A DNA stretch of 64,000 nucleotides, from the NCBI RefSeq assembly GCF_900103485.1, contig NZ_FNHW01000005.1:62001-126000 (forward strand), in the 5' to 3' direction. Source of the stretch: Fictibacillus solisalsi. Its GTDB lineage: Bacteria; Bacillota; Bacilli; Bacillales; Fictibacillaceae. Below are positions 8,706 through 44,796 of this stretch, one piece after another. The position numbers were made by a program, and so were the translations under genes. How positions within the stretch are numbered: position 1 is the first letter of the stretch; every line of letters begins with the position of its first letter. The notes beneath the pieces were generated by a model. The model was not told the origin of the DNA and made no database searches. It worked only from the letters and a program-made list of their open reading frames with translations.

Positions 8706-9596
8706 ATGCAAACAACCGGAGTCATTATCCCCGTTTTTAATCAAGCAATTCCTCTTTTATGTACCTTACATGGATTCCAAAAACAATCTGTTAATTCATT
8801 TAAAATATCGATTGTGGACGATGGTTCTGACGAGGATATAAGGAGCATTGTGCGTTTGTTTGAGGATGTACTGGATATCACCTATACGAGAATCAATAAA
8901 AGTGGGAGAGCAATCGCACGAAATGTGGGAGTCGAAACACTTAAAGGAACTTCTACCCTCATTTTTTGTGATGCCGATCGTATTCCGGCGAGGAATTTTA
9001 TTCAAGAACATCTTAAAGCCCATAACTTCAAGAAAGCTGCTTTGGTAGTAGGTGATATCAAGGAGATGTATGTCCCTGACCTGTGGAATAGCCTTCCTAC
9101 AGTCTTTGAAAACTATCTATTTACAAAGCGGTTGAGGAGGCCACAATATCCTCGTATTGTTTACACGTTATTTGACGAGGAAGGGAAATCCATATCCAAT
9201 ATTCCTTGGTTAGCGACGTTTAGTGGGAATTTTTCCATTAGTTATGACCTTTTTAATAAGATTGGGGGATTTGATGCCAATTTTCGTGATTGGGGTTTTG
9301 AACACTTTGAGTTCGGATACCGTGCCTATCGGCAATCTGTTGATTTCTTATACAACAAGAATGCGGTTAACATTCATATCGCTCATAGCCGTCAAATCAA
9401 TTATCAAACTCATCTCAAAAAAAGTCATGACATATTCAAAAAGAAACACCCGTCCCCAGAAGTCGAGCTACTTTTGGATTTTATGTTAGGTGATGTCAGT
9501 TTATTGGATCTACACAATGTTAGTCTTCCCTTGCATGACAACGTCCCTAACTTCAAAAATATACCGGATCGGTTTGTGAAAATTACTAATTTTTAG
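8706..9596 (+). CDS. Family 2 glycosyltransferase (GT-A fold)
   Basis: 296 residues. The N-terminus GVIIPVFNQ, VDDGSD (37-42) and the DxD-type motif CDADR (88-92) mark a GT-A nucleotide-sugar transferase. The C-terminal segment GGFDANFRDWGFEHFEFG matches the galactosyltransferase-like C-terminal (Glyco_transf_7C) pattern with its acidic base. No membrane segment. AGGTG lies 7 bases upstream of the ATG, and a TATAAT at about 8676 may be the -10 box. It begins a three-gene operon with the aminotransferase 10 bases downstream. Likely attaches an activated hexose or amino sugar to the product; donor and acceptor are unknown. Confidence 0.85.
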   Translation: MQTTGVIIPVFNQAIPLLCTLHGFQKQSVNSFKISIVDDGSDEDIRSIVRLFEDVLDITYTRINKSGRAIARNVGVETLKGTSTLIFCDADRIPARNFIQEHLKAHNFKKAALVVGDIKEMYVPDLWNSLPTVFENYLFTKRLRRPQYPRIVYTLFDEEGKSISNIPWLATFSGNFSISYDLFNKIGGFDANFRDWGFEHFEFGYRAYRQSVDFLYNKNAVNIHIAHSRQINYQTHLKKSHDIFKKKHPSPEVELLLDFMLGDVSLLDLHNVSLPLHDNVPNFKNIPDRFVKITNF

Positions 9597-9606
9597 GAGT
9601 GTGTGT

Positions 9607-10947
9607 ATGAATAAGTATAACGTCCTTCATCCATTCAGCTTTATGCCCAATTTACAGGATAAGACCGAAGAGGATATTAAGGGACTGTACACTTTTTTAG
9701 AAAGTGGAAAAGGTTGTTGGGTAAATGATGATAAAGGAAACAAATACTTTTATGCTACAACAGCAGTTCCAACTGTTGGGCTAGGTAATACAAGAGTAGT
9801 GGAAGCCATCCATAAGCAAATGGAACGTTTGAGTTTTGCGTCTACCTGTGGTCAAACACATCCCTATGTACAAAAACTTGCTGAGAAGTTAATAAGTGTA
9901 GCCGGAGATCATTTCTCCCTTTGCTTTTATACTATGGATGGTAGTGGTGCAATTGAAACTGCGATGAAGCTTGCTAGACAACATTTCATTCAAAAAGGAT
10001 TACATAAAAAATCCAAGTTCATTAGTTTTGATGGCAATTATCATGGCACTATGTTTGCCTCGGGTTCTGTAACAAATATGGGGATTCAAGAAAGCTTTGG
10101 AGAGGGGATTACAGGCTGTTACACTGCGCCTTTTCCAAATATGTTAAGACCTCCTCTTGAAGGGACAGAAGAAGAGATCATGGCCTATTGCCTTCAACAA
10201 CTTGAAAAGTTAATTGCCGAAATTTCTCCGGACGAAATCGCTGCCATTATCTTTGAGCCTATCCAAGCTGTCAATGGAATCATTCCAATGTCTCAGTCTT
10301 TCCTGCAACAGGTCGCCTCTTTAGCAAAAAAGAATAATATCCTCTTAATTGCCGATGAGGTAACTACTGGATTAGGAAGAACAGGATATTGGACAGCCAG
10401 TGAATATTATGGAATCAAACCAGATTTGTTAGCGATTTCAAAGGGATTGACTGGAGGCTACTTTCCTATGGGGGCCACACTTATTTCTTCAGAAGTAGAA
10501 TCAACTTTAATTAGGGAAGGCGGGGTATTTCTTCATGGTTCAACCCAATGTGGTCACCCGGTTGGATGTGTAGCTGCTCTTGAGCTAATCTCAATTATTG
10601 AAGAAGAGAACCTGCTAGACAACGCAAAACATTTGGGAGAAAACATTCTTTCCACCTTCAAAGATCGTTTAAAGGACTGTGAACATGTCGGAGAAGTACG
10701 AGGGCAAGGATTAATGATTTCTATTGAGTTTGTGACTGATCGTCAGTCTAATAACACTATAGACTTTTCGCTAGGCGAGCGCTTTTCTCAAGAACTAAGA
10801 AGGCATGGGGTGCTGGGTAATTATTTTAATGGGATTCTATTGTTATATCCACCACTAAACCTTTCGGAAGGTGAAGCAACTTTTCTTACCAATAAGGTTA
10901 GTCAAGCAATCAACCAAATTTTTGGAGGTATAAATAAATATGAGTGA
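9607..10947 (+). CDS. Class III PLP-dependent aminotransferase
   Basis: 446 residues. Fold-type I, class III signatures are present: DGSGAIETAMKLAR near 111-124, FEPIQ near 216, IADEVTTGLGRTG with the cofactor Asp at 250, and ISKGLTGGYFPMGA with the Schiff-base Lys at 279. ATG at 9607 was chosen because AGGAG lies about 8 bases upstream; GTG at 9601 is in frame but overlaps that site. The preceding glycosyltransferase ends 10 bases upstream and the cupin start overlaps the end by 8 bases. Family role: transfer of an amino group to an aldehyde or ketone, often in amino sugars, omega-amino acids or aminopolyols. It may make an amine that is later acylated by the carrier-linked amino acid system. 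Confidence 0.9.
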   Translation: MNKYNVLHPFSFMPNLQDKTEEDIKGLYTFLESGKGCWVNDDKGNKYFYATTAVPTVGLGNTRVVEAIHKQMERLSFASTCGQTHPYVQKLAEKLISVAGDHFSLCFYTMDGSGAIETAMKLARQHFIQKGLHKKSKFISFDGNYHGTMFASGSVTNMGIQESFGEGITGCYTAPFPNMLRPPLEGTEEEIMAYCLQQLEKLIAEISPDEIAAIIFEPIQAVNGIIPMSQSFLQQVASLAKKNNILLIADEVTTGLGRTGYWTASEYYGIKPDLLAISKGLTGGYFPMGATLISSEVESTLIREGGVFLHGSTQCGHPVGCVAALELISIIEEENLLDNAKHLGENILSTFKDRLKDCEHVGEVRGQGLMISIEFVTDRQSNNTIDFSLGERFSQELRRHGVLGNYFNGILLLYPPLNLSEGEATFLTNKVSQAINQIFGGINKYE

Positions 10948-11293
10948 AGACAAACACAAAATTGTTCGTAAGGAAGACATGGTCTGGGAATATGGGATGT
11001 ATGATCAAACGGAAATGACTTACCTATGGGAAGATGAGGAGACAGGCAGAGTAGCCTTTCTCGTAAAATTAGAACCAGGCGCAAGAATCCCATTTCATGA
11101 TCATCCAAGAAGGGAAATTGCGTTTCTTGTAGAAGGGGAGGTTTGGTTGAATGACGACTTGATGAAAAAAGGCGACTTCTTGACAGCAATTGATCAAGAA
11201 GCACATGACGTCTATTCCGAAAAAGGGTGTACTTTCTTTATTTATATCGATTATAATATCCAAAAGCACCGGTTCGAAAAAATCGAAAAATAG
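10940..11293 (+). CDS. Cupin-domain protein (ChrR-like)
   Basis: 117 residues, one cupin barrel. Motif 1 appears as PFHDHPRREIAFLVEGEVWL, with the two metal His (HxH) and the Glu, and a second His late in QEAHDVYS. Start overlaps the aminotransferase stop by 8 bases, indicating translational coupling; TTGGAGG lies upstream. Followed by a 15-base-pair perfect terminator, so it ends the operon. Cupins of this size act as isomerases, oxygenases or metal-binding sensors; the reaction cannot be told from sequence. Confidence 0.78.
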   Translation: MSEDKHKIVRKEDMVWEYGMYDQTEMTYLWEDEETGRVAFLVKLEPGARIPFHDHPRREIAFLVEGEVWLNDDLMKKGDFLTAIDQEAHDVYSEKGCTFFIYIDYNIQKHRFEKIEK

Positions 11294-11300
11294 TTAACAA

Positions 11301-11344
11301 AAGTAAAAAAGAGCTTGGATATGTAATCGAGCTCTTTTTTACTT
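11301..11344. terminator. Intrinsic terminator, perfect 15-bp stem
   Basis: AAGTAAAAAAGAGCT pairs with AGCTCTTTTTTACTT around a 14-base loop. It ends the GT2-aminotransferase-cupin operon and may also serve the convergent YqaJ-like gene. Confidence 0.85.
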
Positions 11345-11378
11345 GATCAATATATAAGTTCTATAGATTCTGAACATA

Positions 11379-11945
11379 TTACTTCATAACTTCGTTATAC
11401 CAAAATTCTTTCTCTTTGTTTATAATTTTTTTAATTAGATTTTCGTCACGATCAATGTAATAATAATGTAAATGGATTCCACCCACTAACGTAGCTACCC
11501 ACCACCCCTTGGCATTTGTAACAGCCATATAATGTTGGCACTGAAGATAAATAGATGACCTCTCATCCTTTTGGAGTGTAAAGTCTTTATTAGATGTCGC
11601 TTTACACAACAATCCTTCCTTTTTACCAACAACCATTCGATCAACATTTGCTATCATAAATGGATGTTTAACATTTTGTAGAATCGCGTTTTTTCTCAGG
11701 AGCTTGATTCCCGTCTTTTTAAACTCCTCAGCAATAAATTCTTTAACCCTCATTCGAAACTTCATTTTTTCATGAATAATTACCTGTGTGTGACCCGTTT
11801 TTTCCTCAATTAACTTCCGCTTACTTTTACTAGGATTTACCCCGAACAGCGTACTGACATCCGTACCACCAATTCCTTTAGATCTCCATTTTGCCAGTTC
11901 TGCCTCATCTAAGTCATGTTTCCAAACCAATATTCTGTAGTCCAA
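11379..11945 (-). CDS. YqaJ/lambda-exonuclease-like protein, probably inactive
   Basis: The N-terminus (WRSKGIGGTDVSTLFGVNP) and C-terminus (YLQCQHYMAVTNAKGWWVATL) match the YqaJ viral recombinase family of phage alkaline exonucleases. The Asp in IANVDRMV is present. The following catalytic E-x-K strand should read roughly GLLEIK or GLLECK; here it is GLLCKATSN, so the Glu appears to be lost. TTG at 11945 was chosen because AAAGGAGG lies 7 bases upstream; an in-frame TTG at 11963 would overlap that site. 188 residues, short for the family (usually 200-320). Single gene on the opposite strand between two operons, so it may be a phage or plasmid remnant. Confidence 0.7.
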   Translation of the reverse strand: MDYRILVWKHDLDEAELAKWRSKGIGGTDVSTLFGVNPSKSKRKLIEEKTGHTQVIIHEKMKFRMRVKEFIAEEFKKTGIKLLRKNAILQNVKHPFMIANVDRMVVGKKEGLLCKATSNKDFTLQKDERSSIYLQCQHYMAVTNAKGWWVATLVGGIHLHYYYIDRDENLIKKIINKEKEFWYNEVMK

Positions 11946-12209
11946 ATCATGTCCTCCTTTCAAACTCTCTCCATAATAGAAAAAGTTAGAAAGAAATTCT
12001 CGGTCTTTAATCGGAAGATATCGGCTTTTTTAGCCTGGGAAATTTGTGGGATTAAGTAGGAAGATAGCACTATTTATAGAATATTTTAGGCTATTTTGTA
12101 AATTTTACACGAATCTACCGCAATGGATTATGAACTTTCAGAAAATTTTATTGATAATATGTGCTTAGCGAGTAAAAAGTAAACAATTGACATCATAGGG
12201 GGATTTTAT

Positions 12210-12866
12210 GTGAAACCAGTAATCTTGTATTACCCAACATTGCAAAAAGATTTTAATTTTTACGAATGGGTCGGGAACTTGTCCAACAAAGTCAAGTTAA
12301 TGAAAGTTACTAGTTTTCAAGACGTCAAGTCCGTCATGAAGATGGGAGATTACACAGTCTACATTTTATTGACAAATAGTCAATCGTTTCCCGCCAATTG
12401 GCAATTCACTCAATTACAAGCTGATACTACATTAATGATATTAGCCGGTTTCAATAAGATGAATATGGTATTACTCAACTCGTTTCTGGATTCCTTGGAC
12501 ACTTATGTAGAACCTAGCCCTGACAATTCCTCGTTTTATCGATCTCTTGATTATTTAGATGATAATCTTTGTGATAATGAATTGTCCTTGGAAAAGGTGG
12601 CCTCTCACGCGTACGTAAGTAAGTGTCATTATTCAAGAATCTTTCAGCAATATGTCGGTAAAGGATTTAAAGAGTATGTCATCAATAAACGAATTCAAAA
12701 AGCGAAAGTGCTGCTAAAGAAAGGTGAGACCGTTACTGATGTTTGTTTTTCCATCGGATATAACGATCTAACCCACTTTGGACGAATGTTCAAAAAGATT
12801 GTGGGCATTAATCCTTCTCAGTACAGAAATCAATATAGTGCATGCCAGGAGGCTAAAACATCTTGA
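12210..12866 (+). CDS. AraC-family transcriptional regulator, likely cluster regulator
   Basis: 218 residues. Residues about 118-215 form the AraC double helix-turn-helix (LSLEKVASHAYVSKCHYSR, then FSIGYNDLTHFGRMFKKIVGINPSQYR). The N-terminal 115 residues are not a cupin or a clear receiver; they begin VILYYPTLQKDFNFYEW and contain VYILLTNSQSFPANWQ, which the second AraC protein at 29396 echoes (VVFLSANQSLPADWM). GTG start with AGGGGGA 8 bases upstream. First gene of the core operon, overlapping the TPR gene by 4 bases. Inferred to activate cluster promoters; the ligand is unknown. Confidence 0.85.
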   Translation: MKPVILYYPTLQKDFNFYEWVGNLSNKVKLMKVTSFQDVKSVMKMGDYTVYILLTNSQSFPANWQFTQLQADTTLMILAGFNKMNMVLLNSFLDSLDTYVEPSPDNSSFYRSLDYLDDNLCDNELSLEKVASHAYVSKCHYSRIFQQYVGKGFKEYVINKRIQKAKVLLKKGETVTDVCFSIGYNDLTHFGRMFKKIVGINPSQYRNQYSACQEAKTS

Positions 12867-13789
12867 AGAAAATACTTATTGTTCTATCTGTTATAGGGAT
12901 TATCGCATTTGCTATAACATCCTTTCGAAGTTATAACTTTTACAAGGCTTACGAAATCCCGTCCTTAAAAGGTAATGTGAACATTCATGAGCTTAACATT
13001 GATTTTAAAGAAGAAATAAAAATTGCAAACAGAAATATAGCAGAGAACAGAGAACTAGGTGTTAAAGATATCAATGAGGTTAATGTAGAAGAGGGTTATC
13101 ACTATTCTAAGAAGTTAATAAAGGAAGGAAAGTATAACCAAGCCTCACAATTACTAAAAAAAATCGTAAAGTTAAAACCGAATCAATGGGTTTATCTTAA
13201 TGAACTCCGAATACTCGCACTTAAGGAAAACAAGACAGATGACTTCTTAAAAACAATGGAAGCTATTCCTCAGACATATGAAGTTAGAATGAACGAAGCA
13301 TTGGCCTATGTGGACTATTTACAAACCCCTGGAATGGGGACGGCTAACTTAGGACAAAAGTCGGCACAGTCCATAAATTTATTAAATGAAATTATTAAAG
13401 AAAATAAACACGACTTGTTAGCCCATTATGCCAGAGGCCTTAACAACCTATATTGGCCTTTGGGATTGAAAAGAACCAATAAAGCTATTCAAGATCTGAC
13501 GTATTGTGTGGCTGTTGAAAAAGAATTTGGAGGAGACAAATTTCCGTTCTGGGCCTTGTTTTATGTTGCCTTAGGGGATGCCCTTGTTAAGGATGGACAA
13601 CAAAAAGAGGGACAAGCTGTTTGGAAACAAGGATATAAAAAATATCCTCACTCTTCTGAATTAGAAAAACGCCAAGGATTAGATGAGAAAAAAGCTTTTC
13701 AATTGGTTAAAGAAGAGAGAGGAATTGATGGTTTTCAACAGCCAGATAAGTCCATCTCCGATCTTAGTATTATTTGGTCAAATCATTAA
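12863..13789 (+). CDS. Membrane-anchored TPR protein
   Basis: 308 residues. One N-terminal membrane helix (about 4-22, ILIVLSVIGIIAFAI) anchors a helical domain outside or along the membrane. TPR-like repeats are visible near residues 80-115 (YSKKLIKEGKYNQASQLLK, then IVKLKPNQWVYLNELR) and 190-270 (LAHYARGLNNLYWPLG, ALFYVALGDALVKDGQQKEG). TTG start after AGGAGG, overlapping the AraC stop. Upstream of the ketosynthase and in the same operon as the UNB-like genes, so it may scaffold the membrane part of the pathway. I do not know an exact family. Confidence 0.65.
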   Translation: MKKILIVLSVIGIIAFAITSFRSYNFYKAYEIPSLKGNVNIHELNIDFKEEIKIANRNIAENRELGVKDINEVNVEEGYHYSKKLIKEGKYNQASQLLKKIVKLKPNQWVYLNELRILALKENKTDDFLKTMEAIPQTYEVRMNEALAYVDYLQTPGMGTANLGQKSAQSINLLNEIIKENKHDLLAHYARGLNNLYWPLGLKRTNKAIQDLTYCVAVEKEFGGDKFPFWALFYVALGDALVKDGQQKEGQAVWKQGYKKYPHSSELEKRQGLDEKKAFQLVKEERGIDGFQQPDKSISDLSIIWSNH

Positions 13790-13806
13790 ATAGGGGGGAT
13801 CGATTC

Positions 13807-14955
13807 ATGCGATCCATTGCTGTTTCTGGAATATCCGTAATTTCTTCATTAGGCTCAAATATCGAGCAAACGTGGTCAAATATGCTAAATAAACAAAGTG
13901 GTGTCAGCCAGGTAACTTTGTTTCCGGTAGAGGATCAACATAATCGTAATGCATGTGAGGTAAAAGATCTTAAATCAATTTGTATCCCAGAGGTTTATGA
14001 AAAAGGCAGGGCAACAAGCTTGCTCATTACAGCGATAGACGATGCATTATTTGATGCAGGACTCGACGAGAGTTTCTTACAATCCGCTCGATGTGGATTA
14101 AGTGTCGGAACAACAATGGGAGAGTTGAATGGGTTAAGTCGAGAAGGCGCTCATATGAAATATGGTCCCCATCTTTTGGCGAAGAATGTTCGGGACTATT
14201 ATGAGCTAGGAGGGCCTTCGTGGACCCTCACCAATGCTTGTGCGGCCGGGAATTTTTCCATAGCAAAGGCGATGGACGAATTACAATCCGGTAGAGTAGA
14301 TGTGATGATTGCTGCAGGTGTGGACGCTTTATCTTGGGTAGCTTTTACGGGCTTTAGCAGTTTACGTGCGATGTCCCCTGATTTTTGTAGTCCATTTGAT
14401 AAAGATAGAAAGGGATTAATTCTAGGTGAAGGAGCAGCAGTTTTAATCTTAGAGAGTATTGAGCATCTTCAAAAAAGGTCAAGAAATTCAAAAGCTGTCA
14501 TAAAAGGTTATGGTCTCAATTGTGATGCTCATCATATAACTCAACCAGATCCAGACGCAGTGGGGGCAATCACGGCAATGCAAGAAGCTCTTCAACATGC
14601 TCAGTTGTCACCAAAGGATATTCAGTATGTTAGTTCACATGGCACTGGAACGAGGGCAAATGATTCGATGGAAAGTAAAGCCCTGTTCAAATGTTTTGGA
14701 AGTGGTATTACTACGAGCTCAGTCAAAGGGAATATAGGCCATACCTTAGGTGCGGCCAGTGTGATTGAAGCAGCGTTGAGCGTGAAAATTATAAATGAGA
14801 AAATTATTCCCCCCACGGCAAACTTGCATCAAGTGGATCCAGAAGTGGAGGTTCATGTAATCAAAGATCACCCCGCTAATTTTGACGGTGAAAATATCAT
14901 TTCCAATGCCTATGCCTTTGGGGGAATTAATTCGTCAATTATTATAGGGAAATAG
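13807..14955 (+). CDS. Beta-ketoacyl-ACP synthase (KAS II/FabF-type ketosynthase), complete catalytic triad
   Basis: 382 residues of the thiolase fold. The catalytic set is complete: Cys145 in TNACAAGN, His278 in SSHGTGT and His312 in KGNIGHTLGAA. ATG at 13807 was chosen because GGGGGG lies about 8 bases upstream; a longer in-frame start at 13774 would run through the preceding gene. It is somewhat short for FabF (about 410) and its sequence is unlike a housekeeping FabF. Spaced 17 bases from the UNBU-like gene. Role: decarboxylative Claisen elongation of an ACP-bound chain with malonyl-ACP. Together with the half-KS or the second KS it may form a KS:CLF-like heterodimer. Confidence 0.9.
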   Translation: MRSIAVSGISVISSLGSNIEQTWSNMLNKQSGVSQVTLFPVEDQHNRNACEVKDLKSICIPEVYEKGRATSLLITAIDDALFDAGLDESFLQSARCGLSVGTTMGELNGLSREGAHMKYGPHLLAKNVRDYYELGGPSWTLTNACAAGNFSIAKAMDELQSGRVDVMIAAGVDALSWVAFTGFSSLRAMSPDFCSPFDKDRKGLILGEGAAVLILESIEHLQKRSRNSKAVIKGYGLNCDAHHITQPDPDAVGAITAMQEALQHAQLSPKDIQYVSSHGTGTRANDSMESKALFKCFGSGITTSSVKGNIGHTLGAASVIEAALSVKIINEKIIPPTANLHQVDPEVEVHVIKDHPANFDGENIISNAYAFGGINSSIIIGK

Positions 14956-14971
14956 CGCATATGGAGGATAT

Positions 14972-15811
14972 ATGATCAATTTAAAAGAACAATCGCTTAA
15001 GATAATTACTTCCTGGAAGGACTATAAGGTTGACCCCAGGTATTTTGTATTGCTATTTCTTTTTTCATTTACCTTGGCCGGCATGGTTTATCTAGGTTTT
15101 TTTCAATCTTGGAAATCCATTTTAACGGGAATTGTGGTCTCCGTTACAACTGAAGTTGTGCTAACAAGGCTTGTCCATAAAGTATGGCGATTTCCACTTA
15201 GTGCGGTCATAACTGGGACGGGGGTTGGTTTGTTAATTAGTTCTCCTTATCCCTGGATCTATGCACTTACTAGCTTTCTCTCTATTGTTATTAAAATGTT
15301 TGTACGGTTCAAAAAAGGACATATTTTTAATCCCAATAATATAGCGGTAGTATTGGTCTTGTTCACATTAAATCAATATGCCGTCAGTACACCTAAGCAA
15401 TGGACCAATGGGTTTGAAATCATGATGGTTATTCTGTTGTTGGGTATTTTTGCAACCTACATGGCGAATCGACTCGATGTTGTCCTTTCATTTCTAGGCA
15501 GTTTTACACTGTTCGGACTACTTCGCCACTATTGGTTGGGGGCTCCAATGTACGCAGCACTAGGTCCCCTAATGGGAGCATCTCTCCAGTTGTTTGCCTT
15601 TTTCATGATTACCGATCCCAAATCAACCCCAAGTACAAGGCGAGAGAGAATCCTATTTGCATTTTTAGTCGGCGCGTTAGATGCGATCTTCCGTATCTAT
15701 CGCATTCCAAATCCCCAGTTTTATGCTCTTTCCCTCATTAGCTTGTTAACCATTATCCCTTTTAGAATATGGATTGCTAAACGCATTAATAAAACAGAAA
15801 CTGGAATCTAG
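14972..15811 (+). CDS. UNBU-like integral membrane protein (RnfD/NqrB-related)
   Basis: 279 residues with about eight predicted membrane helices. The motifs FNPNN (119-123) and ITDPKSTPSTRR (213-224) match the family that includes RnfD/NqrB and the enediyne-cassette protein UNBU. Known: UNBU homologs are conserved beside PksE in enediyne clusters; Rnf/Nqr relatives bind flavin and move electrons. Here the gene sits between two ketosynthase genes, with AGGATAT as a weak ribosome site. Inference: a membrane redox or desaturation component acting on the polyene chain together with the UNBL- and UNBV-like proteins downstream. The assignment rests on motif recall, not on a search. Confidence 0.7.
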   Translation: MINLKEQSLKIITSWKDYKVDPRYFVLLFLFSFTLAGMVYLGFFQSWKSILTGIVVSVTTEVVLTRLVHKVWRFPLSAVITGTGVGLLISSPYPWIYALTSFLSIVIKMFVRFKKGHIFNPNNIAVVLVLFTLNQYAVSTPKQWTNGFEIMMVILLLGIFATYMANRLDVVLSFLGSFTLFGLLRHYWLGAPMYAALGPLMGASLQLFAFFMITDPKSTPSTRRERILFAFLVGALDAIFRIYRIPNPQFYALSLISLLTIIPFRIWIAKRINKTETGI

Positions 15812-15822
15812 GTGAGTTAAAT

Positions 15823-16629
15823 ATGGTATATATTAGTGGGCTTTCTTGTATCTCTCCCTTTGGCATTGGGATTGAGAAGTTGATTGGAAGAATGCAAAAA
15901 GATTCTACTGCCTCAAGTAAAAACAGATTACCAAATGAACTGAAGTACACTCATATTAAAGGATTGAATCGACTTCCCAAGGTGAGCAGGTATGGTTGCA
16001 TCGCTATTTCAGAAGCACTCCGGTTTGCTGGCTATAAAGGGTTGTTGGGAAAAAATAGCCAAATCGGGATAGTCGTTTCTAATAACTATGGTAGTTTAGA
16101 AGCTATTCAAGATATGTTTCAAGAGTGTGATCAGTATGGTCCGACAAAAGTGAATCCATCAATTTTTCCTGGGACGGTATTAAATGTAGTAGGTGGCCAT
16201 ATTTCTATCGTTTTCAAGTTTAATGGCCCCAATATTACCTTATCCGATGGGGTTGATTCTGGATTTAAGAGTCTTTTGTATGGTTATGACCTTATTCAAC
16301 AGGGGAAAGCGGAAAAGATCCTAATTTGTGATCTAAATATTTTTCCACCTACCAAATATAAATCAGAAGTTGAAGAATTCCTCCCCGACTTTGAGAGCGT
16401 AGGAGCCATACTTCTTGAAAGACAACCAAAAAACGATTCACTGCAGTTATCCGTTAATCCTGTAAATAAAGAAGGCAACACTGTAGAAAATCCAAGAAAT
16501 ATTACAAGAGAGCTGATAAAAAAGAGTTTTACGTTGTTAAAAGATGAGAGTACCAATAACGATAAAATGTACACGTATGCAAGGGGTCATGGGACATATT
16601 GCCTCAGTCTTAATAGGATTTCAAAATGA
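15823..16629 (+). CDS. Truncated ketosynthase-like protein lacking the active Cys (Ketoacyl-synt_2-like)
   Basis: 268 residues that align only with the N-terminal part of a ketosynthase (VYISGLSCISPFGIG start, then IGIVVSNNYGSLEAI). At the nucleophile position it reads SDGVDSGF (141-148), so the Cys is replaced, probably by Val144, and no HGTGT or GHTLGA motif follows. The size and content fit the Ketoacyl-synt_2 group of half-ketosynthases that accompany type II polyene synthases. It cannot condense by itself; a chain-length-factor or scaffold role beside one of the two full KS proteins is inferred. Starts 11 bases after the UNBU-like gene and overlaps the next KS by 4 bases. Confidence 0.75.
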   Translation: MVYISGLSCISPFGIGIEKLIGRMQKDSTASSKNRLPNELKYTHIKGLNRLPKVSRYGCIAISEALRFAGYKGLLGKNSQIGIVVSNNYGSLEAIQDMFQECDQYGPTKVNPSIFPGTVLNVVGGHISIVFKFNGPNITLSDGVDSGFKSLLYGYDLIQQGKAEKILICDLNIFPPTKYKSEVEEFLPDFESVGAILLERQPKNDSLQLSVNPVNKEGNTVENPRNITRELIKKSFTLLKDESTNNDKMYTYARGHGTYCLSLNRISK

Positions 16630-17885
16630 TGAAAGACATTTATTTATCAGGTATTGGACTAATATCTTCTCTTGGGCATGATATGTCTGCTTGGAGAAAA
16701 CTGTTTAGAAATGAACAAAACCCGGCCAAACGACAGTATCTTCTAAATAATAATATTGAAATTGAGTATCCTGTATTCCCCATCGGAGAAGACGAGCTAG
16801 CGTATCTTAAAGAAAAATTATTCACAGAGTTTGGTATTCGTGAAGATGATATTGAACAGTTCTTGCTGGAGGATAAAGACTTTCTTTTGTTATTGATTGC
16901 GTCATTAGCGGGCCTTCGAAATGCCAATATTAACTGCATGGATAAGACAGTTGCTTTGGTCATTGCTCATGAAAACTTAGGGGTGAACCATTTAATTGAT
17001 GGTCTGATACAAAAACCCAATTTACTAGATCCGTCGAGTCCGCTAGAATCTTTTCAACAATATAAACATGATTTTTTCCGACTCCAGAACTTTAATTTTC
17101 TCTATCACTTGGCAAAAATATTAAAAGTAAATGGACCCACATATACCATCAATAATGCCTGTGCTTCCGGCCTTTATGCTCTTGAATTAGGGAGTAATCT
17201 GATTAAAAGCGAGCAGGCCGATGTGGTTATTGTTGTTTCCAGTGATTATGCACATGTGACTGAATACTTGTGGTTAAACGAAAAGGGGTTTAATGCGTCT
17301 AATAATGTTATTGCTCCTTTCGATCAAAAAGCTACAGGGTCAGTACTTGGGGATGGAGCCGGAGTTATTATTTTGGAATCAGAAGACAGTTTAACTCAAA
17401 GAAAGCACTCGCCTTTAGGTCGTTATATTACAACGGCTTTTCAACAAGACCATTGGCGAATTAGCCTACCAGATGTAACAGCAAAGTCGTATTCAAAAGT
17501 AATTAAAAAGGCTTTATCCCGATATGGGCGTAATGTCGATTTTATTATCCCACATGGTACAGGAATTCCGATGTGGGATAAGTATGAAGCAAGAGAAATA
17601 ACATCTTCCTTTAAAGATTTAAATCTAGAAATCCCCCATGTTGCTGCATTTAAGGGATTTATAGGTCACACCTTAGGGGCTAACAGTCTCATAGAGTTAG
17701 TTTTAGGAATATTTAGCTTGAATGAAGATGTAATTCCACCGTTTTTCCCTCCAGATTTCCACGCACATCCAAGCGTTGCACTACCTTTCACTCAAAAGAA
17801 AATTACTAAGAAAATGAACAGTGTATTAAAAACCGTAGCGGCATATGGCGGGTTTAATGCTGCGACCATTATTGAAAAAACTTGA
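16626..17885 (+). CDS. Second beta-ketoacyl-ACP synthase, complete catalytic triad
   Basis: 419 residues. Catalytic Cys179 in NNACASGLYA, His310 in PHGTGIP and His348 in KGFIGHTLGA are all present, so this is a potentially active KS. It diverges strongly from the KS at 13807, with an extended loop around residues 55-85 (FGIREDDIEQFLLEDKDF). Start ATG ATG overlaps the half-KS stop by 4 bases, indicating tight coupling of the two. Two active KS genes plus one half-KS suggests either KS:partner heterodimers or separate elongation and starter steps. The ketoreductase begins 10 bases downstream. Confidence 0.88.
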   Translation: MMKDIYLSGIGLISSLGHDMSAWRKLFRNEQNPAKRQYLLNNNIEIEYPVFPIGEDELAYLKEKLFTEFGIREDDIEQFLLEDKDFLLLLIASLAGLRNANINCMDKTVALVIAHENLGVNHLIDGLIQKPNLLDPSSPLESFQQYKHDFFRLQNFNFLYHLAKILKVNGPTYTINNACASGLYALELGSNLIKSEQADVVIVVSSDYAHVTEYLWLNEKGFNASNNVIAPFDQKATGSVLGDGAGVIILESEDSLTQRKHSPLGRYITTAFQQDHWRISLPDVTAKSYSKVIKKALSRYGRNVDFIIPHGTGIPMWDKYEAREITSSFKDLNLEIPHVAAFKGFIGHTLGANSLIELVLGIFSLNEDVIPPFFPPDFHAHPSVALPFTQKKITKKMNSVLKTVAAYGGFNAATIIEKT

Positions 17886-17895
17886 GGGGGAACGC

Positions 17896-18645
17896 ATGTT
17901 TAATCTTAGGGACTTTGCGAACAAAACCGCGTTGGTGACGGGCGGTTCAAGAGGAATTGGAAGAGAAATTGTCACCCAGTTAGTCAAAAATAAAGCCAAT
18001 GTAATTTTTACCTATAATAATGGGATTGAACAGGCAGAATCCCTTCTAGCAGAGTTGAAAAATGAGGATGTAGTGCTCAAGGCCATTCAGTGCAATCTGG
18101 AAAAGAAACGCGAGTTGGATCGTCTAATTGACTACCTTTCAAGTCATCCCACAAAGATTGATTTTCTCATCAACAATGCAGGATTTACAATGGATCAACC
18201 CTTCTTAAAAATGAAGGACGAGGAATGGGAGAAAGTGCTACAGGTGAATTTAACCGCTACTTCCTACTTGACTCGTAAGCTACTTCGTACTTTGTTAGTG
18301 CAAAAGGGGGCTATTGTAAACATTACGTCCATATCTGGATTAATTGGTACAAAAGGACAAGTAAACTATTCAGCTTCTAAAGCGGGAATCATTGGATTGA
18401 CAAAGGCCCTTGCCAGGGAAGTAGGTCGACTAGGTGTAAGGGTCAATTGTATCGCTCCTGGATATATCAAAACAGATATGATTAGTGGAGTCCCTAAAGA
18501 TAAATGGAACAAAATTCAAAAGGATATTCCATTGAATCGAATAGGAGAACCTGAAGATGTAGCTCATATGGCTTTGTATTTACTATCTTCATACGCTTCC
18601 TATATAACTGGCCAAGTCATAACTATTGATGGTGGATTAATTTAG
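17896..18645 (+). CDS. 3-oxoacyl-ACP reductase (FabG-type SDR)
   Basis: 249 residues. NADPH motif TGGSRGIG (15-22), NNAG (93-96) and the catalytic Ser145, Tyr158, Lys162 (NYSASKAG) are all present. ATG at 17896 has GAGGGGG about 6 bases upstream; a longer frame at 17845 lies inside the KS gene. Immediately followed by the ACP gene (13 bases). Role: NADPH-dependent reduction of the beta-keto group after each elongation. Its place between KS and ACP makes it a dedicated polyketide ketoreductase rather than the housekeeping enzyme. Confidence 0.92.
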   Translation: MFNLRDFANKTALVTGGSRGIGREIVTQLVKNKANVIFTYNNGIEQAESLLAELKNEDVVLKAIQCNLEKKRELDRLIDYLSSHPTKIDFLINNAGFTMDQPFLKMKDEEWEKVLQVNLTATSYLTRKLLRTLLVQKGAIVNITSISGLIGTKGQVNYSASKAGIIGLTKALAREVGRLGVRVNCIAPGYIKTDMISGVPKDKWNKIQKDIPLNRIGEPEDVAHMALYLLSSYASYITGQVITIDGGLI

Positions 18646-18658
18646 AAAGGGTGGTTAG

Positions 18659-18892
18659 ATGTCATACGAAATTAAAAAACAAAGAATTTTAGAGTTAATT
18701 GCAGAAATGGTAGAAATTGATGTAAATGAGGTTAAAGAAGATAGTGATTTTGCAGATTTAGGGATTGATTCCCTAATGGCTCTTGAGTTAGCGGTGTATC
18801 TCGAACGTGATTACAATATATTCATTAAGGAACATGAACTAATGAATCTTCGAAAAGTAGAAGACCTTTTAAGTTTTTTAAAAACAAATTAA
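18659..18892 (+). CDS. Acyl carrier protein 1
   Basis: 77 residues, four-helix ACP fold. The phosphopantetheine site is Ser38 in DLGIDSLMALEL. The ribosome site AAAGGGTGG lies 6 bases upstream. It is the ACP of the KS-KR operon and presumably carries the growing polyketide chain; activation would be by the AcpS-type enzyme at 28949 or a chromosomal one. The second ACP at 33052 is quite different and probably carries another acyl unit. Confidence 0.93.
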   Translation: MSYEIKKQRILELIAEMVEIDVNEVKEDSDFADLGIDSLMALELAVYLERDYNIFIKEHELMNLRKVEDLLSFLKTN

Positions 18893-18915
18893 TGGAATAA
18901 GGATGAGTGCTCATA

Positions 18916-19848
18916 ATGGTTAAGTTTCTTACACACTACTTTTCCGGGAACCATTCATTTTTTAAAAAGAGATTTCTCAGCATACTTTTCCATTTTTTCA
19001 GTGGAGCTTTCCTGGCTTTTTTGATCCCCTCTGTTAGACTCCTCAGATTCCTTATCGAACATCTCTCTCCCACCTTTTACCGGGGATTTACTGATGAAGG
19101 TGCCGGAATTGGTTTTGGATTAAGAGCGCATTTCTTTAAAAAAAGAGGGCGCTCATTTGAAACCAGCATTCAATCCCTGACTAGCAGATCGATATACCAA
19201 TACTACGTTGGCTTAGGATGGTGGCTTCATTACCGCTATCGCTATAACCCTAAAAAATACGACGACTGGATTAGGCAGCTTCACTTCAAATATGCTTTGA
19301 TACTTTTTGATGGTGTGGGTTTTAAAGTTGGTTTATTTACCTTTTACCATAATAAAAAAAGCCTAGCAGTATTAGAACACTTTACTGTGCCACAGCAAAG
19401 AGTTTGTTATCAGGGGTTTGGACGAAGCCTCTGGTTTCAAAGTAAATTTCATTGGTCAACGGCTTTAACTGAACTTGACCGATTGGGGAAAGACCATCCA
19501 TTTCGAAACGATATTTTAAGCGGCCTTGGTCTTGCCGTTGCATATAGTAAATTTGATGATTTGTCATTAGGAAGTACTATACTGACTTCTCTTTCATCTG
19601 AAGACACGAGCAGTTTTGCCCAAGGACTCGCATTTGGCTTAGAAGCACGAAAAAAACAAAATCCTAAACTATGGGAGAGCACAATAGAGGCTTTACCCCT
19701 TCCTATCAAGGAGCAAATGAATGGTTTCATTCAAATTTGTTACCAAGTTGAAGAAGAACTAGATGAGTACTGTACCGACCGTGATTACTATTTGTTATGG
19801 ATTGATAAAATCAGAAACACATTAGAAGGAGATAATGGATATCGATGA
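18916..19848 (+). CDS. DUF1702 protein, UNBL-like (enediyne-cassette homolog)
   Basis: 310 residues. It shows the ordered landmarks I recall for DUF1702/UNBL: RGFTDEGAGIG (56-66), YVGLGWW (97-103), FDGVGF (131-136), GFGRSLWF (167-174) and LSGLGLAVAYS (201-211), in the same spacing as the actinobacterial RGFAYEGAAM, VGVGWA, LDGYGF, GRSLWF and WSGVGLAAAY. Known: DUF1702 proteins are conserved beside PksE in enediyne clusters and have no assigned chemistry. GTG at 18907 is an alternative start. The gene overlaps the UNBV-like gene by 4 bases. One of three UNB-family homologs in this operon, the key clue to the pathway. Confidence 0.8.
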   Translation: MVKFLTHYFSGNHSFFKKRFLSILFHFFSGAFLAFLIPSVRLLRFLIEHLSPTFYRGFTDEGAGIGFGLRAHFFKKRGRSFETSIQSLTSRSIYQYYVGLGWWLHYRYRYNPKKYDDWIRQLHFKYALILFDGVGFKVGLFTFYHNKKSLAVLEHFTVPQQRVCYQGFGRSLWFQSKFHWSTALTELDRLGKDHPFRNDILSGLGLAVAYSKFDDLSLGSTILTSLSSEDTSSFAQGLAFGLEARKKQNPKLWESTIEALPLPIKEQMNGFIQICYQVEEELDEYCTDRDYYLLWIDKIRNTLEGDNGYR

Positions 19849-21602
19849 TGAAACCAGTTGTAAAAAAAGTAGCCATGTTAGTTCTAGTGGTTTTTGTAAT
19901 CTTATTAAGTGCATGTCAACAAGAAGCTAAGGTTAACTATGGATTCAAATTCAAGGATATTACGCAATCCACCGAAATAAATTTCACCCATCAAAAACCT
20001 CAATTTGACAAGAAAGTGAGCAATGTTATGCCTTGGCTTGCATCAACTGGTGCAGGTGTATTCCTAAACGATTACAACAACGATGGGAAAATCGATGTCT
20101 ATTTAATTAATTCTAAAAAAGGCTCGAGTAACAAGTTGTATAAAAACAAGGGTAACAATAAATTTGAGGATGTAACGGATCAGGCTGGGATCGGTGATGT
20201 TAATAAAGAAGGAATTTCTGAAACCGCCCTTTGGTTTGATTATGATAATGATGGGTTTCAAGATCTATTTGTTGGTGCATGGGGCAAAAGCCAACTATTT
20301 AAGAACAATGGGGATGGTACATTCACGAATGTGACAGAATCCTCAGGACTCAAAGCAATGGGTTATGCAGCAAAAGCCATTGCCATAGATTACAATCGAG
20401 ATGGTAATTTGGATTTGTATATCGGCAACTACTTTAGAAAAGATGTTGACTTATGGAATCTGAAAAGCACAAAAATCTTTCATAATGATTTTGAAAAAGC
20501 AAGAAATGGAGGAGAGAATTACTTCTTCAAAAATAATGGAGACGGTACATTTACTGAGATTGGAAAAAAACTTAATTTAGATGATACCGGTTGGACCCTC
20601 GCCACTGGAATGGCCGATATTAATAACGATGGCTATCCTGATATTTATAATGCAAACGATTTTGGAGCTGATTCCCTACTGATTAATAAAGCTGGAAAGC
20701 GTTTTGAAAAAATCACTCAACACCGGGGGATTGGTGAAGATACGTATAAAAGTATGAATGTTGATTTTGCGGATGTTTTCCATGATGGGAATTTTGCAAA
20801 CTATGTATCGAACATTAGTAAACAAAAGTACTTGCTAGAGGGAAACCAACTCTGGCATATGAACTCTAAAGGGAAGTACGTTGATCGAGCAAAAGAACTA
20901 GATATATTTCAATCCGGATGGTCTTGGGGCGCAAGATTTTTTGACGTAAACAACTCAGGGAATTTGAGTCTGGTGGTGACCAACGGATTCATTACAGGAA
21001 AGTCAAGAGAGACCTATTGGTTTGACATGGGGACCCTTGCCACAACTCCTGGTAACATCGTTGAGGATGCAAAGAACTGGCCAGCGATTGGTGACAAAGA
21101 TATGTCTGGTCATGAACAAAAATCACTTTTTCTTAATCAAGGCAAAACCTTCCCCGATGTCGCTAAAGATGTGGGAATTACATTTAAAAAAGATGGCCGT
21201 GGGGTGGCGGTAGGAGACCTCGATAACAATGGAACCTTGGATTTATTTTTTGCAAATCAAGGGGCAAAACCAAAAGTTTACACGAATATACAAAAGAAAC
21301 CAACAAATTGGATTAAAATCGACCTTAAAGGAACCCCTCCCAGTAATAGAGAGGCAATAGGGGCTAGGCTTACTTTCCACAATAATGGCATTAAAACGGT
21401 GGTTGAAAAAGATGGAGGAAACAGTTTCGGCTCCCAAAGCGATCCGCGTATCCATCTTGGCTTAGGAAAAAGTGAAACGCTTGATCAATTAGATATTAGA
21501 TGGCCAAGTGGAAAAAAAGAAGTCTTTAAAAACATTAAATCAAATCAGATTTTATCGATTGTGGAAGGGAAAGGCTCATATAAAGTCATCTCCAAGAAGT
21601 AA
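19845..21602 (+). CDS. ASPIC/UnbV-domain FG-GAP/VCBS lipoprotein, UNBV-like
   Basis: 585 residues. An N-terminal signal with lipobox LLSAC (Cys24) predicts export and lipid anchoring. FG-GAP/VCBS blades carry calcium loops such as DYNNDGKIDVYL, DYDNDGFQDLFV, DYNRDGNLDLYI, DINNDGYPDIYN and DLDNNGTLDLFF, indicating a beta-propeller. Residues about 490-575 are the ASPIC/UnbV domain (AIGARLTFHNNG, DPRIHLGLGKSETLDQLDIRWPSG). UNBV was named from enediyne clusters; related proteins also occur elsewhere. Translationally coupled to the DUF1702 gene by an ATGATGA overlap. Being outside the membrane, it implies that part of the pathway or its protection acts at the cell surface. Confidence 0.92.
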   Translation: MMKPVVKKVAMLVLVVFVILLSACQQEAKVNYGFKFKDITQSTEINFTHQKPQFDKKVSNVMPWLASTGAGVFLNDYNNDGKIDVYLINSKKGSSNKLYKNKGNNKFEDVTDQAGIGDVNKEGISETALWFDYDNDGFQDLFVGAWGKSQLFKNNGDGTFTNVTESSGLKAMGYAAKAIAIDYNRDGNLDLYIGNYFRKDVDLWNLKSTKIFHNDFEKARNGGENYFFKNNGDGTFTEIGKKLNLDDTGWTLATGMADINNDGYPDIYNANDFGADSLLINKAGKRFEKITQHRGIGEDTYKSMNVDFADVFHDGNFANYVSNISKQKYLLEGNQLWHMNSKGKYVDRAKELDIFQSGWSWGARFFDVNNSGNLSLVVTNGFITGKSRETYWFDMGTLATTPGNIVEDAKNWPAIGDKDMSGHEQKSLFLNQGKTFPDVAKDVGITFKKDGRGVAVGDLDNNGTLDLFFANQGAKPKVYTNIQKKPTNWIKIDLKGTPPSNREAIGARLTFHNNGIKTVVEKDGGNSFGSQSDPRIHLGLGKSETLDQLDIRWPSGKKEVFKNIKSNQILSIVEGKGSYKVISKK

Positions 21603-21623
21603 TCAAGGAGAAAGGGGGAGGAA

Positions 21624-22586
21624 ATGATAAATAGGCTGCGTGTTGGAATTATTGGATGTGGAAAAATAACTCAAGTTCGTCATCTTCCAGAATATTTGGA
21701 GAGGAAAGATGTCGAGGTCATTGGCTTGTGCGATGAGAATCTAGAGAGAGCAACGGCCTTGGCTTCTAAATACAATATTCCCTTTGTTACCGATCGGGCC
21801 GATGACATCATTGATCATCAAGATATACAAGCTGTTTCGGTGTGCACTCCAAATATATTTCATGCAGATCAAAGTATAAAAGCTTTGAAACAAAACAAAC
21901 ATGTTTTAGTGGAAAAGCCAGTGGCTACATCTATCCAAGAATTAAATGAAATGTTCGACGTTGCTCGGGAGAATGATAAATTGTTAATGGTGGGGCATAA
22001 TCAACGATTTGATCCTGTCCATTTGAAGGCCAAGAAGATGATTGCAGAAGGTTCTATCGGTAATATTTTGCAGTTCATTTCTAATTACCAGCATCCTGGC
22101 CCAAAGTATTGGAGTTTGGATGGAGAGAACAGTTGGTTCTTTAATCAACAACTATCTACATTTGGTGTAGTAGGAGATTTGGGAGTTCATAAGTTAGACT
22201 TAATGCAATGGATACTTGAAGATGTCTTCTCAGAATGGAAGGTACTTAAAAATAGTGTGTTAGACGATAGAGCTGTTATTTCTTTAAAGACATTAGGTGG
22301 AGTAGTAGGCTCCATCAATGTAAGCTGGAACAATCCTCTTCAAGACCATCGGACGACCATTTATGGTGATAAGGGGATTATGACTTTCGGAGAGGAACTT
22401 CAAATACTTAAAGTTGAAACGTTTGACGGAGAAATAAGTACGGTAAAAATAGAGCCCATCTTACGCCAGGATGGAAAACCGTCATCTTGTGTTATTGATC
22501 ACTTTTTAGATTGCATCTTATATGGTATTACACAAGTCATTAATCCTCGCCATGTATTTAATTCACTTGAAATCATTACAAGTTAA
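21624..22586 (+). CDS. Gfo/Idh/MocA-family NAD(P)-dependent oxidoreductase
   Basis: 320 residues. N-terminal Rossmann motif VGIIGCGKI, the family hallmark EKP in VLVEKPVA (about 91-98), and a C-terminal alpha/beta domain containing GDLGVHKLDLMQW with the His/Asp of the active site. GGGGGAGG lies 3-5 bases before the ATG. Relatives oxidise or reduce sugars and cyclitols. In this operon it is the only obvious sugar-type redox enzyme, so it may serve deoxysugar or cyclitol formation, or reduce a polyketide ketone. 21 bases after the UNBV-like gene. Confidence 0.88.
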   Translation: MINRLRVGIIGCGKITQVRHLPEYLERKDVEVIGLCDENLERATALASKYNIPFVTDRADDIIDHQDIQAVSVCTPNIFHADQSIKALKQNKHVLVEKPVATSIQELNEMFDVARENDKLLMVGHNQRFDPVHLKAKKMIAEGSIGNILQFISNYQHPGPKYWSLDGENSWFFNQQLSTFGVVGDLGVHKLDLMQWILEDVFSEWKVLKNSVLDDRAVISLKTLGGVVGSINVSWNNPLQDHRTTIYGDKGIMTFGEELQILKVETFDGEISTVKIEPILRQDGKPSSCVIDHFLDCILYGITQVINPRHVFNSLEIITS

Positions 22587-22597
22587 GGAGAAGTAAA

Positions 22598-22801
22598 GTG
22601 AGATTACAATTACCATATGATGAACACATAGAGCTTATTAAAACGGTGCAATCACATATGAAAGAGACATACTGCATCGATCTTGGATTACTTGCAACCC
22701 AAGATCTCATTAACTTAATTTATTCCAATATTGAGTATGCTGTGATTGAGCCATTACGAAAGTCGGATCAAATCTTACAGGAGATAAAGAAACTACTATA
22801 G
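22598..22801 (+). CDS. Small hypothetical protein (67 aa), last gene of the core operon
   Basis: GTG start with AAGGAGA 8 bases upstream. Helical, acidic and soluble, with an LPYDEHIELIKTVQ start and a charged C-terminus. No family recognised and no cofactor motif. It follows the oxidoreductase by 11 bases and is followed by a terminator, so it ends the 12-gene operon. It may be a partner protein of the preceding enzyme. Confidence 0.6.
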   Translation: MRLQLPYDEHIELIKTVQSHMKETYCIDLGLLATQDLINLIYSNIEYAVIEPLRKSDQILQEIKKLL

Positions 22802-28952: not shown

Positions 28953-29335
28953 TATTTGGTGTAGGGATTGATTTACAAGAACTAAAACAGTTTCAGAAAG
29001 TGGTCGATAGAAGAGAGGAAGCTTTTTTACAGAAAGTATTTACAGAGCGGGAATTAAAGTACTCTAAACAAAAGAATTTTATTCAATCATTGGCAGGACG
29101 TTGGGCTGTAAAGGAAGCCTTTTTAAAGGCTATGGGAACGGGGATTCAAAACATGAGAGCTCTCAAAGAAATTGAAATTATAAACCTTCATGGTGGCAAG
29201 CCCTATATAAACCTAACAGGCGAACTTAAAACAAAATGTACCGTACTGAATATAAAAATTGATGCTAGTATTTCCCATTCAAAGGACTATGCGACGGGCA
29301 TGGTGGTACTAAGCAGAGATAAAAGTTTTGGTTGA
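28949..29335 (+). CDS. acpS: AcpS-type 4'-phosphopantetheinyl transferase
   Basis: 128 residues. GVGIDLQELKQF has the metal-binding Asp, and GRWAVKEAFLKAMGTGI carries the catalytic Glu and Lys of holo-ACP synthases; the length is typical. It overlaps the GT1 gene by 4 bases. Role: transfers the 4'-phosphopantetheine arm of CoA to the Ser of ACP 1 and ACP 2. A dedicated copy in the cluster supports type II carrier-protein biosynthesis and mirrors the phosphopantetheinyl transferase domain of enediyne PksE. Symbol by homology to the Bacillus gene; this is a second, cluster-specific copy. Confidence 0.9.
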   Translation: MIFGVGIDLQELKQFQKVVDRREEAFLQKVFTERELKYSKQKNFIQSLAGRWAVKEAFLKAMGTGIQNMRALKEIEIINLHGGKPYINLTGELKTKCTVLNIKIDASISHSKDYATGMVVLSRDKSFG

Positions 29336-37989: not shown

Positions 37990-38015
37990 TGGGATTATCC
38001 ATAAAGGAACTTTCC

Positions 38016-38927: not shown

Positions 38928-38933
38928 GTTCCA

Positions 38934-40049: not shown

Positions 40050-40152
40050 CGGTAGAATAAGAGTTTAATAGCAACGTTCTCTAAAGGGTTTTTATAGACA
40101 TTCATAGGTGCTATCACTGTGAAAAAATCAAGTATGTAGGGGGAGAAACTAA

Positions 40153-42866: not shown

Positions 42867-42873
42867 AGAACAT

Positions 42874-43053: not shown

Positions 43054-43073
43054 CATTAAGGGGGGAGGGTAAC

Positions 43074-44795: not shown

Positions 44796-44796
44796 G

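Follow-up and report, generated by a model that had tools for sequence, protein, structure and literature searches.

UnbL, UnbU and UnbV homologs share an operon with a dissociated polyketide synthase in Fictibacillus solisalsi and other Bacillales

What are UnbL, UnbU and UnbV doing in an operon whose polyketide synthase (PKS) is made of separate proteins? This UNB trio is otherwise known mainly from the antitumour enediyne antibiotics, and to our knowledge the function of the three proteins is unknown, although enediyne cassettes carry them. The question is raised by Fictibacillus solisalsi (GCF_900103485.1), of which we analyzed a window of 64,000 nt (contig NZ_FNHW01000005.1, positions 62,001-126,000; coordinates below are window positions). 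Positions 12210-22801 form a single tight operon of eleven genes reaching to 22586 and a 67-aa open reading frame (ORF) reaching to 22801, all on the same strand and either overlapping or no more than 21 bp apart. The gene order is AraC, TPR, KS1, UnbU, half-KS, KS2, KR, ACP1, UnbL, UnbV and Gfo/Idh, where KS, KR and ACP stand for ketosynthase, ketoreductase and acyl carrier protein (Table 1). UNB proteins together with a dissociated PKS are a real, conserved variant, which we did not find described in the literature searched; few subscription papers were covered, making this weak evidence of novelty.

The initial annotation of this DNA described KS, half-KS, KS, KR and ACP genes interleaved with UNBL-, UNBU- and UNBV-like genes, and the ORFs and their Pfam matches above curated cut-offs bear this out (family calls rest on these cut-offs, with NCBIfam models also used). 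The profile check that it proposed placed the three UNB proteins in the DUF1702, RnfD/NqrB and ASPIC/UnbV families, all above cut-offs. KS1 (motifs TNACAAGN, HGTGT and GHTLG) and KS2 (NNACASG, PHGTG and GHTLG) both keep Cys-His-His, and the half-KS, an N-terminal KS part alone, aligns without Cys at the active-site position. Discrete KS, KR and ACP are encoded as separate proteins, which makes this a type II (dissociated) PKS. The absence of a type I PKS from the window also held: the longest listed ORF has 644 aa, ORFs running off the window ends being unlisted. A PksE hidden elsewhere in the F. solisalsi genome was considered and rejected, the PksE-KS query giving 0 matches at E≤1e-40. Among the window proteins scanned, none was assigned an acyltransferase domain, and no window ORF of at least 200 aa matched GHSxGE. 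The two hotdog dehydratase genes, DHa (just under the Pfam cut-off) and DHb, and the AcpS gene expected in the same cluster are present at 35482, 35891 and 28949.

We scanned named-species genomes with a four-row UnbL alignment and kept the best 80 of 96 confirmed stretches together with two plasmid loci (L007 and L008). The resulting 82 loci comprise 25 from Bacillales, 2 from Enterobacterales, 4 from planctomycete-type metagenome-assembled genomes (MAGs; L035 is titled 'bacterium' only) and 51 from Actinomycetota. Among the Bacillales loci, KR, ACP, UnbL and UnbV occur in 25/25 and KS1 with the half-KS in 24/25, the sole locus without a KS (L037) ending at a contig edge; a KS ORF of at least 800 aa occurs in 0/25. 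UnbU lies within 10 kb in 17 of the 25 and is present in all 23 genomes searched for it (L010 and L028 were outside that search; the L010 locus shows UnbU).

For a deeper comparison we used the window, a sister genome of the same genus (G024) and 12 of the 25 Bacillales loci chosen for spread, in neighborhoods of 64-120 kb each; presence means anywhere in that span, and common families (AraC, ABC) may be there by chance. All 14 neighborhoods hold TPR, KS1, UnbU, half-KS, KS2, KR, ACP1, UnbL, UnbV, a cupin and an SRPBCC-PDZ protein. Thirteen hold the class III aminotransferase, AraC, the flavoenzyme, the 30413 family, the methyltransferase, DHa and DHb, and 11-12 hold the AMP-ligase, ACP2, both hydrolases, the M29 protein, two glycosyltransferases, the second SRPBCC-PDZ protein and a BtrH-like protein. 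Decoration is variable (carbamoyltransferases in 3-5/14, the heptose-type sugar set in 4/14). Gene content stays constant while gene order varies among neighborhoods, which argues for one pathway. In the sister genome nearly all genes from ~7.3 to 55.6 kb are collinear with the window, mostly at 75-95% protein identity.

The core recurs in other phyla. Both enterobacterial loci, on Serratia proteamaculans plasmid NZ_MT039191.1 and in Enterobacteriaceae LSJC7, share with the window the full trio, ACP, KS1 with half-KS, KR, KS2 and a methyltransferase of ~354 aa (E 7e-45 and 2e-43) whose family occurs in 9 Bacillales regions, and they differ from it in other tailoring genes and in having the half-KS fused to the KS1 C-terminus (2/2 loci; Bacillales half-KS profile, E 2e-17 and 1e-17). 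A weak GT1 is also common to both; TPR, AraC and SRPBCC-PDZ had no match in the 18.6 and 20.6 kb covered. Three of the four planctomycete-type loci have UnbL, ACP, KS1 and KS2, and the remaining locus, a contig of 8 kb, shows UnbL and ACP. L035 is the one among them with a half-KS, a separate protein beside these genes (E 1e-18); PksE ORFs score no better than 2e-4 with the half-KS profile, a level that any KS would be expected to reach. In Actinomycetota, 43/51 loci have a KS, in 41 of them with an ORF of at least 800 aa, and the remaining 8/8 have a PksE-type KS in the genome (E≤5e-130). The trio is incomplete within 10 kb in some of these (UnbV 31/51, UnbU 35/51; this search covered the 10 kb around UnbL).

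DUF1702 is rare in evenly drawn genomes (Bacilli 4/398, Bacillota 1/398, Planctomycetota 5/294, Pseudomonadota 1/398, Actinomycetota 3/396; these samples include our own or seed genomes), and it occurs in 2/34 genomes of the family of F. solisalsi (that genome included) and in 0/14 control genomes. All four DUF1702-bearing Bacilli (the window, L205, L206 and L207) carry the whole operon. Nine neighborhoods from the evenly drawn DUF1702 genomes were examined (19-20 kb for L208 and L209); L205, L206 and L212 are probably genomes already counted as L027, L018 and L081. L211, L212 and L213 have a KS ORF of more than 2000 aa at the UnbL locus, and in L210, an independently drawn planctomycete, a half-KS adjoins UnbL, with UnbV and ACP and no KS1 or KS2 seen. 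The rule that UnbL always lies beside a KS is not absolute, as L208 and L209 have none nearby. The survey that the initial annotation called for gives a conserved association of the trio with discrete KS, KR and ACP; the two outcomes named beforehand as counting against it, UNB proteins that miss their families and a trio that regularly keeps company with unrelated pathways, are not what we found.

Phylogeny separates the two kinds of system. In an UnbL tree of 81 rows, a discrete-KS lineage parts from an actinobacterial PksE lineage with SH-aLRT support of 100; the program flags a meeting of long branches, so the depth is uncertain. Of 82 listed UnbL rows, L037, L059, L060 and L064 were omitted from tree and alignment, and the tree gained L007 and L008. 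A KS tree of 55 rows was built by a quick method with SH-aLRT only, from 13 Bacillales, 2 enterobacterial and 3 planctomycete-type pairs, 16 PksE and 3 PDB sequences (sampling 12 of 25 Bacillales and 16 of 51 actinobacterial loci). KS2 from three phyla forms one clade (99), KS1 lies on one side of a branch with support of just 63, and PksE is separate (100) on a long branch.

The UNB proteins themselves are distant homologs of the actinobacterial ones, at 18-22% identity for UnbL, 26% for UnbU (to S. clavuligerus) and 30-31% for UnbV (three genomes); 18 UnbL columns are invariant across 79 sequences, actinobacterial included. Among 53 UnbU rows (<420 aa; Bacillales, Enterobacterales, Actinomycetota), HxxNPxN occurs in 52 and TDPxxTP in all, and [SD]GAT, which we take to be the covalent-FMN motif of Rnf/Nqr, occurs in just 1. 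UnbU scores 38.8 bits against the NCBIfam rnfD model (cut-off 207), and no other Rnf subunit gene was found among the window proteins scanned; UnbU as a normal Rnf flavoprotein is not supported. Because it keeps its two motifs and lacks the presumed FMN motif, UnbU is RnfD-like in sequence and probably differs from RnfD in cofactor. TPR, UnbU, UnbV and perhaps UnbL, which has one hydrophobic stretch, are predicted to be membrane-associated from simple hydropathy and lipobox scans, and a lipobox-like regular-expression match is found in 23/25 Bacillales UnbV rows. Separately, 5 of the 14 neighborhoods (PspUNC_G431, Ptyrf_G446, P453mf_G438, BreMAG_G448 and Pmass_G449) hold two UnbU copies per region.

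Is this, then, an enediyne cassette in another form? We take UNBL, UNBV and UNBU to be E3, E4 and E5. As in an enediyne cassette, UnbL, UnbV and UnbU homologs accompany a PKS; unlike there, the PKS is a discrete KS1/half-KS/KS2/KR/ACP set whose KSs are not PksE-like. The enediyne PKS cassette is E3/E4/E5/E/E10 (PMC5181780). The PksE-KS query (E≤1e-40) had no match in 14 of 24 genomes and matches of at most 41% identity in the other 10, compared with best matches of at least 53% in 9 actinobacterial genomes. On its own account, one P. cellulosilyticus genome (that of L014) has a KS 36% identical over nearly the full query, in a 1336-aa ORF (G435:C15:81804-83045) on a contig other than that of its UnbL cluster. 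A profile of 13 small PksE-adjacent ORFs, which we take from their position to be the E10-type thioesterase, gave 38 match lines in actinobacterial loci at 1e-5, whereas up to E≤10 nothing matched in the window, in 13 Bacillales regions or in the 2 enterobacterial and 4 planctomycete-type loci. A profile of small ORFs next to PksE matched, at E 9e-25, an ORF that by eye looks like a flavin reductase (Oprof_G437 region, L122, 61412-62008). In a search for enediyne accessory genes, 53 window-gene profiles run against the 51 actinobacterial UnbL loci (E≤1e-3) reached more than three loci only for UNB, KS, AraC and KR, other matches being sporadic (at most 3/51 loci) and a reversed-sequence control giving 0. 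Since only the UNB members of the cassette were found, PksE and the E10 type were not and little else is common, the system should not be classed among enediyne cassettes, even if it may function in a similar way.

The KS1-half-KS fusion suggests that KS1 and the half-KS act as a KS:partner pair, and KS2 may prime or end chains. The best solved relatives of KS1 are 9s5h (294 bits; identified as a KS by its chain label only), 6kxd (224), presumably the ishigamide polyene KS, and 4ls5 (207), which we take to be a B. subtilis-type FabF. If 6kxd is the ishigamide KS, this operon resembles a highly reducing type II PKS in its discrete KS, KR, dehydratase and ACP, and differs in having an extra KS2, a half-KS in place of a full chain length factor, and the UNB trio. 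The earlier idea of a polyene made by type II logic and then processed by UNB proteins is thus plausible in its first part, with 9s5h and 6kxd ahead of FabF, while an alkyne-rich or enediyne-like core is not supported so far.

We give a probability of roughly 0.55 to a reading in which a dissociated polyene synthase passes its product to a membrane-associated UNB module, the core of a specialized-metabolite pathway. KS1 paired with the half-KS would, with KR, DHa, DHb and ACP1, build a linear conjugated polyene from malonyl-ACP, the malonyl units presumably coming from a housekeeping transacylase because the window shows no discrete acyltransferase. The partners awaiting the chain, or the polyene once released, would be a membrane-embedded UnbU, a UnbV exported as a lipoprotein and UnbL with its hydrophobic stretch, with TPR as a putative membrane-anchored scaffold. 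The module would alter the polyene as in enediyne pathways, most likely by an oxidoreduction or rearrangement step, and flanking genes would then aminate, methylate, hydroxylate, glycosylate, carbamoylate and export the core. Several observations weigh against this reading. The polyene is an inference rather than a known product. The KS tree, which has only three reference KSs, does not tie KS1 to polyene KSs, and 9s5hB groups with FabF (82). KS1-like proteins (36-39% identity) also occur on plasmids that gave no UnbL match (9 records, from Photobacterium and Rhizobium); the 4 plasmid records with UnbL (1 Serratia, 3 S. clavuligerus) are others, and the phage collection has 0. UnbU was not found in 4/4 planctomycete-type MAG genomes (E≤1e-5), and their UnbV (396-496 bits, vs ≤204 for their other ASPIC proteins) sits elsewhere in the genome, away from PKS genes, in 4/4. 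L208, a planctomycete with the trio at a contig end, has no KS in 19-20 kb, and in L209, also a planctomycete, UnbL adjoins an AMP-ligase-type ORF of 2248 aa, and nothing in 19 kb matches KS, UnbU or UnbV. As for starter chemistry, AMP-ligase (12/14) and ACP2 (11/14) are missing from some neighborhoods.

The same genes can be read otherwise. They may specify a polyene pigment or lipid of the aryl-polyene or flexirubin kind, whose polyene the UNB proteins anchor, transport or protect without any core chemistry; we consider this unlikely, although it would account for the AMP-ligase, ACP2, two hotdog dehydratases and methyltransferase, a set like that of such clusters, for the KR match to FlxB (239.7 bits, below the cut-off of 340), and for a lipoprotein UnbV beside an UnbU without the presumed FMN motif. 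The heavy tailoring set of aminotransferase, glycosyltransferases, carbamoyltransferases, dioxygenases and exporters better suits a diffusible bioactive compound, and UnbL in Actinomycetota tracks PksE-type KSs in locus or genome. Distinctly improbable is a ring-forming logic as in cispentacin or coronafacate, with KS2 and half-KS as KS and cyclization factor, DHa as AmcE, and a five-membered-ring acid aminated by the aminotransferase. This weak resemblance, absent from the earlier interpretation, lies in a KS with a reduced KS-like partner, an AmcE-like hotdog protein, an AMP ligase and an aminotransferase. NCBIfam scores stay far below cut-offs (AmcF vs KS2 117.4 bits, cut-off 325; AmcG vs half-KS 18.2, cut-off 80, E 0.0015; AmcE vs DHa 52.6, cut-off 140), and the enterobacterial half-KS is fused to KS1, not KS2. 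AmcG is described as a cyclization factor that partners the KS and lacks functional motifs, and AmcF-AmcG carries out a single C2 elongation (PMC10698177), which would leave a second active-type KS and the KR unexplained; these and the UNB trio set the present operon apart. The least probable is that discrete enzymes make a genuine enediyne or another core with alkynes: each of the three UNB proteins has its homolog in PksE clusters, with UnbL sharing its invariant columns, yet neither the PksE query nor the E10-type profile revealed another cassette member, and the AHSA1 domain matched no chain named CalC.

Beyond F. solisalsi, a class of dissociated polyene synthases spread over Bacillota, planctomycetes and Pseudomonadota (KS1, half-KS, KS2 and ACP, joined by KR in Bacillota and Pseudomonadota) might feed UNB proteins that alone convert a linear polyene to an alkyne-rich or cyclized core. 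We think this rather improbable; if true, PksE would be a second, single-chain way of supplying the same trio. The trio-PKS partnership across phyla offers a new way to learn what UNB proteins do: with the trio here paired with a PKS of unrelated architecture, its requirements must lie in the features common to both systems. The PKS parts are small individual proteins from low-GC bacteria near to tractable laboratory hosts, which allows each step to be included or dropped. The comparison also flags an unexplored set of clusters in Paenibacillus, Brevibacillus, Oceanobacillus and relatives.

Table 1. Features of the window and related loci. Scores are in bits with any cut-off in parentheses; n/14 is the number of Bacillales neighborhoods with the family.
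Feature	Position	Strand	Evidence
SRPBCC-like + PDZ protein, second copy	7711-8568	-	PDZ match; N-terminal domain alignable to that of 32163; 12/14
GT2 glycosyltransferase	8706-9596	+	11/14
Class III aminotransferase	9601-10947	+	310.1; 13/14
Cupin	10940-11293	+	14/14
YqaJ-like nuclease domain protein	11379-11963	-	62.9; 7/14
AraC-family regulator, first operon gene	12210-12866	+	HTH_18 77.1; 13/14 (common family)
TPR protein, one N-terminal hydrophobic segment (1-24)	12863-13789	+	Weak TPR matches; 14/14
KS1, full ketosynthase, triad C156/H289/H323	13774-14955	+	Pfam ketoacyl-synthase
UnbU, RnfD/NqrB-like membrane protein	14972-15811	+	PF03116 NQR2_RnfD_RnfE 58.7 (27.7)
Half-KS, probable KS partner	15823-16629	+	N-terminal KS part only, 35.2 (20.8); active Cys absent
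KS2, ketosynthase, triad C179/H310/H348	16626-17885	+	Pfam ketoacyl-synthase
KR, FabG-like ketoreductase	17845-18645	+	adh_short_C2 218.5
ACP1, 77 aa	18659-18892	+	ACP reading from DLGIDSLMAL motif; 14/14
UnbL, DUF1702	18907-19848	+	PF08012 73.2 (25)
UnbV, FG-GAP propeller + ASPIC/UnbV, predicted lipoprotein (LSAC)	19845-21602	+	FG-GAP_3 142.9 (26.9); UnbV_ASPIC PF07593 67.9 (23.4)
Gfo/Idh/MocA oxidoreductase, in operon	21624-22586	+	112.8; 10/14
67-aa ORF, last of operon	22598-22801	+	Window and sister genome G024 only (2/14)
Macrolide-type glycosyltransferase	27732-28952	+	12/14
AcpS-type phosphopantetheinyl transferase	28949-29335	+	74.1; 9/14
Conserved protein without Pfam match, adjoins flavoenzyme	30413-30937	+	13/14
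FAD-dependent monooxygenase/reductase-like flavoenzyme	31001-32170	+	63.5; 13/14
AHSA1/SRPBCC + PDZ protein	32163-33065	+	14/14
ACP2	33043-33291	+	PP-binding 43.6; 11/14
AMP-binding ligase	33294-34697	+	161.1; 12/14
Methyltransferase	34733-35476	+	13/14
DHa, hotdog dehydratase-like	35482-35880	+	Pfam 22.4 (23); NCBIfam AmcE 52.6 and FabZ 42.1, both below cut-off; 13/14
DHb, FabZ-like dehydratase	35891-36286	+	FabA 44.5; 13/14
Two alpha/beta hydrolases	36290-37087, 37102-37989	+	Each 11/14
BtrH-like, M29 peptidase-like, BtrH-like	37986-41133	+	BtrH_N below Pfam cut-off
Two ABC exporters	41133-44795	+	Domain scan
Three carbamoyltransferases	44779-49921	+	Two scanned, NodU-like
Tailoring block: two PhyH dioxygenases, cytidylyltransferase-like, GT9, PfkB kinase, SIS isomerase (heptose-type set)	49961-55620		Domain scan
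KS1-half-KS fusions	L007:1784-3676, L038:2784-4676		Two enterobacterial clusters, one on a mobilizable Serratia plasmid
Replication/segregation/integrase genes	3320-4633 (-); L184:9103-10443 (-); L184:12993-14210; L186:1445-2566; L187:10988-12109		

The cluster is probably on a large plasmid. Genes on its 145,024-bp contig encode a pair of Rep3 initiators, a segregation protein resembling Alp7A and a pair of phage-type integrases; an overlap of the contig ends was looked for and not found, leaving plasmid status unproven. A near DNA search of a plasmid collection with 9601-22801 gave no match. CalC-like self-resistance was considered for the SRPBCC-PDZ proteins and rejected, a profile of 11 N-terminal domains giving 9 weak matches (best E 0.27, YndB), none named CalC.

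Among the flanking genes, a carbamoylated heptose decoration seems likely. The heptose-type genes (SIS, PfkB, cytidylyltransferase-like, GT9) lie at 51584-55620, with a HAD protein at 26673, and the four sugar genes occur together in the same 4/14 neighborhoods. A fourth carbamoyltransferase lies just right of the window (L185:6493-8145), beside the three within it. The window holds four weak BtrH_N-like proteins (5682, 37986, 40153, 60980), all below the Pfam cut-off and possibly acyl transferases acting from ACP, and five PhyH-type dioxygenases (2098, 49961, 50763, 55792, 56629), a family also repeated in other Bacillales clusters.

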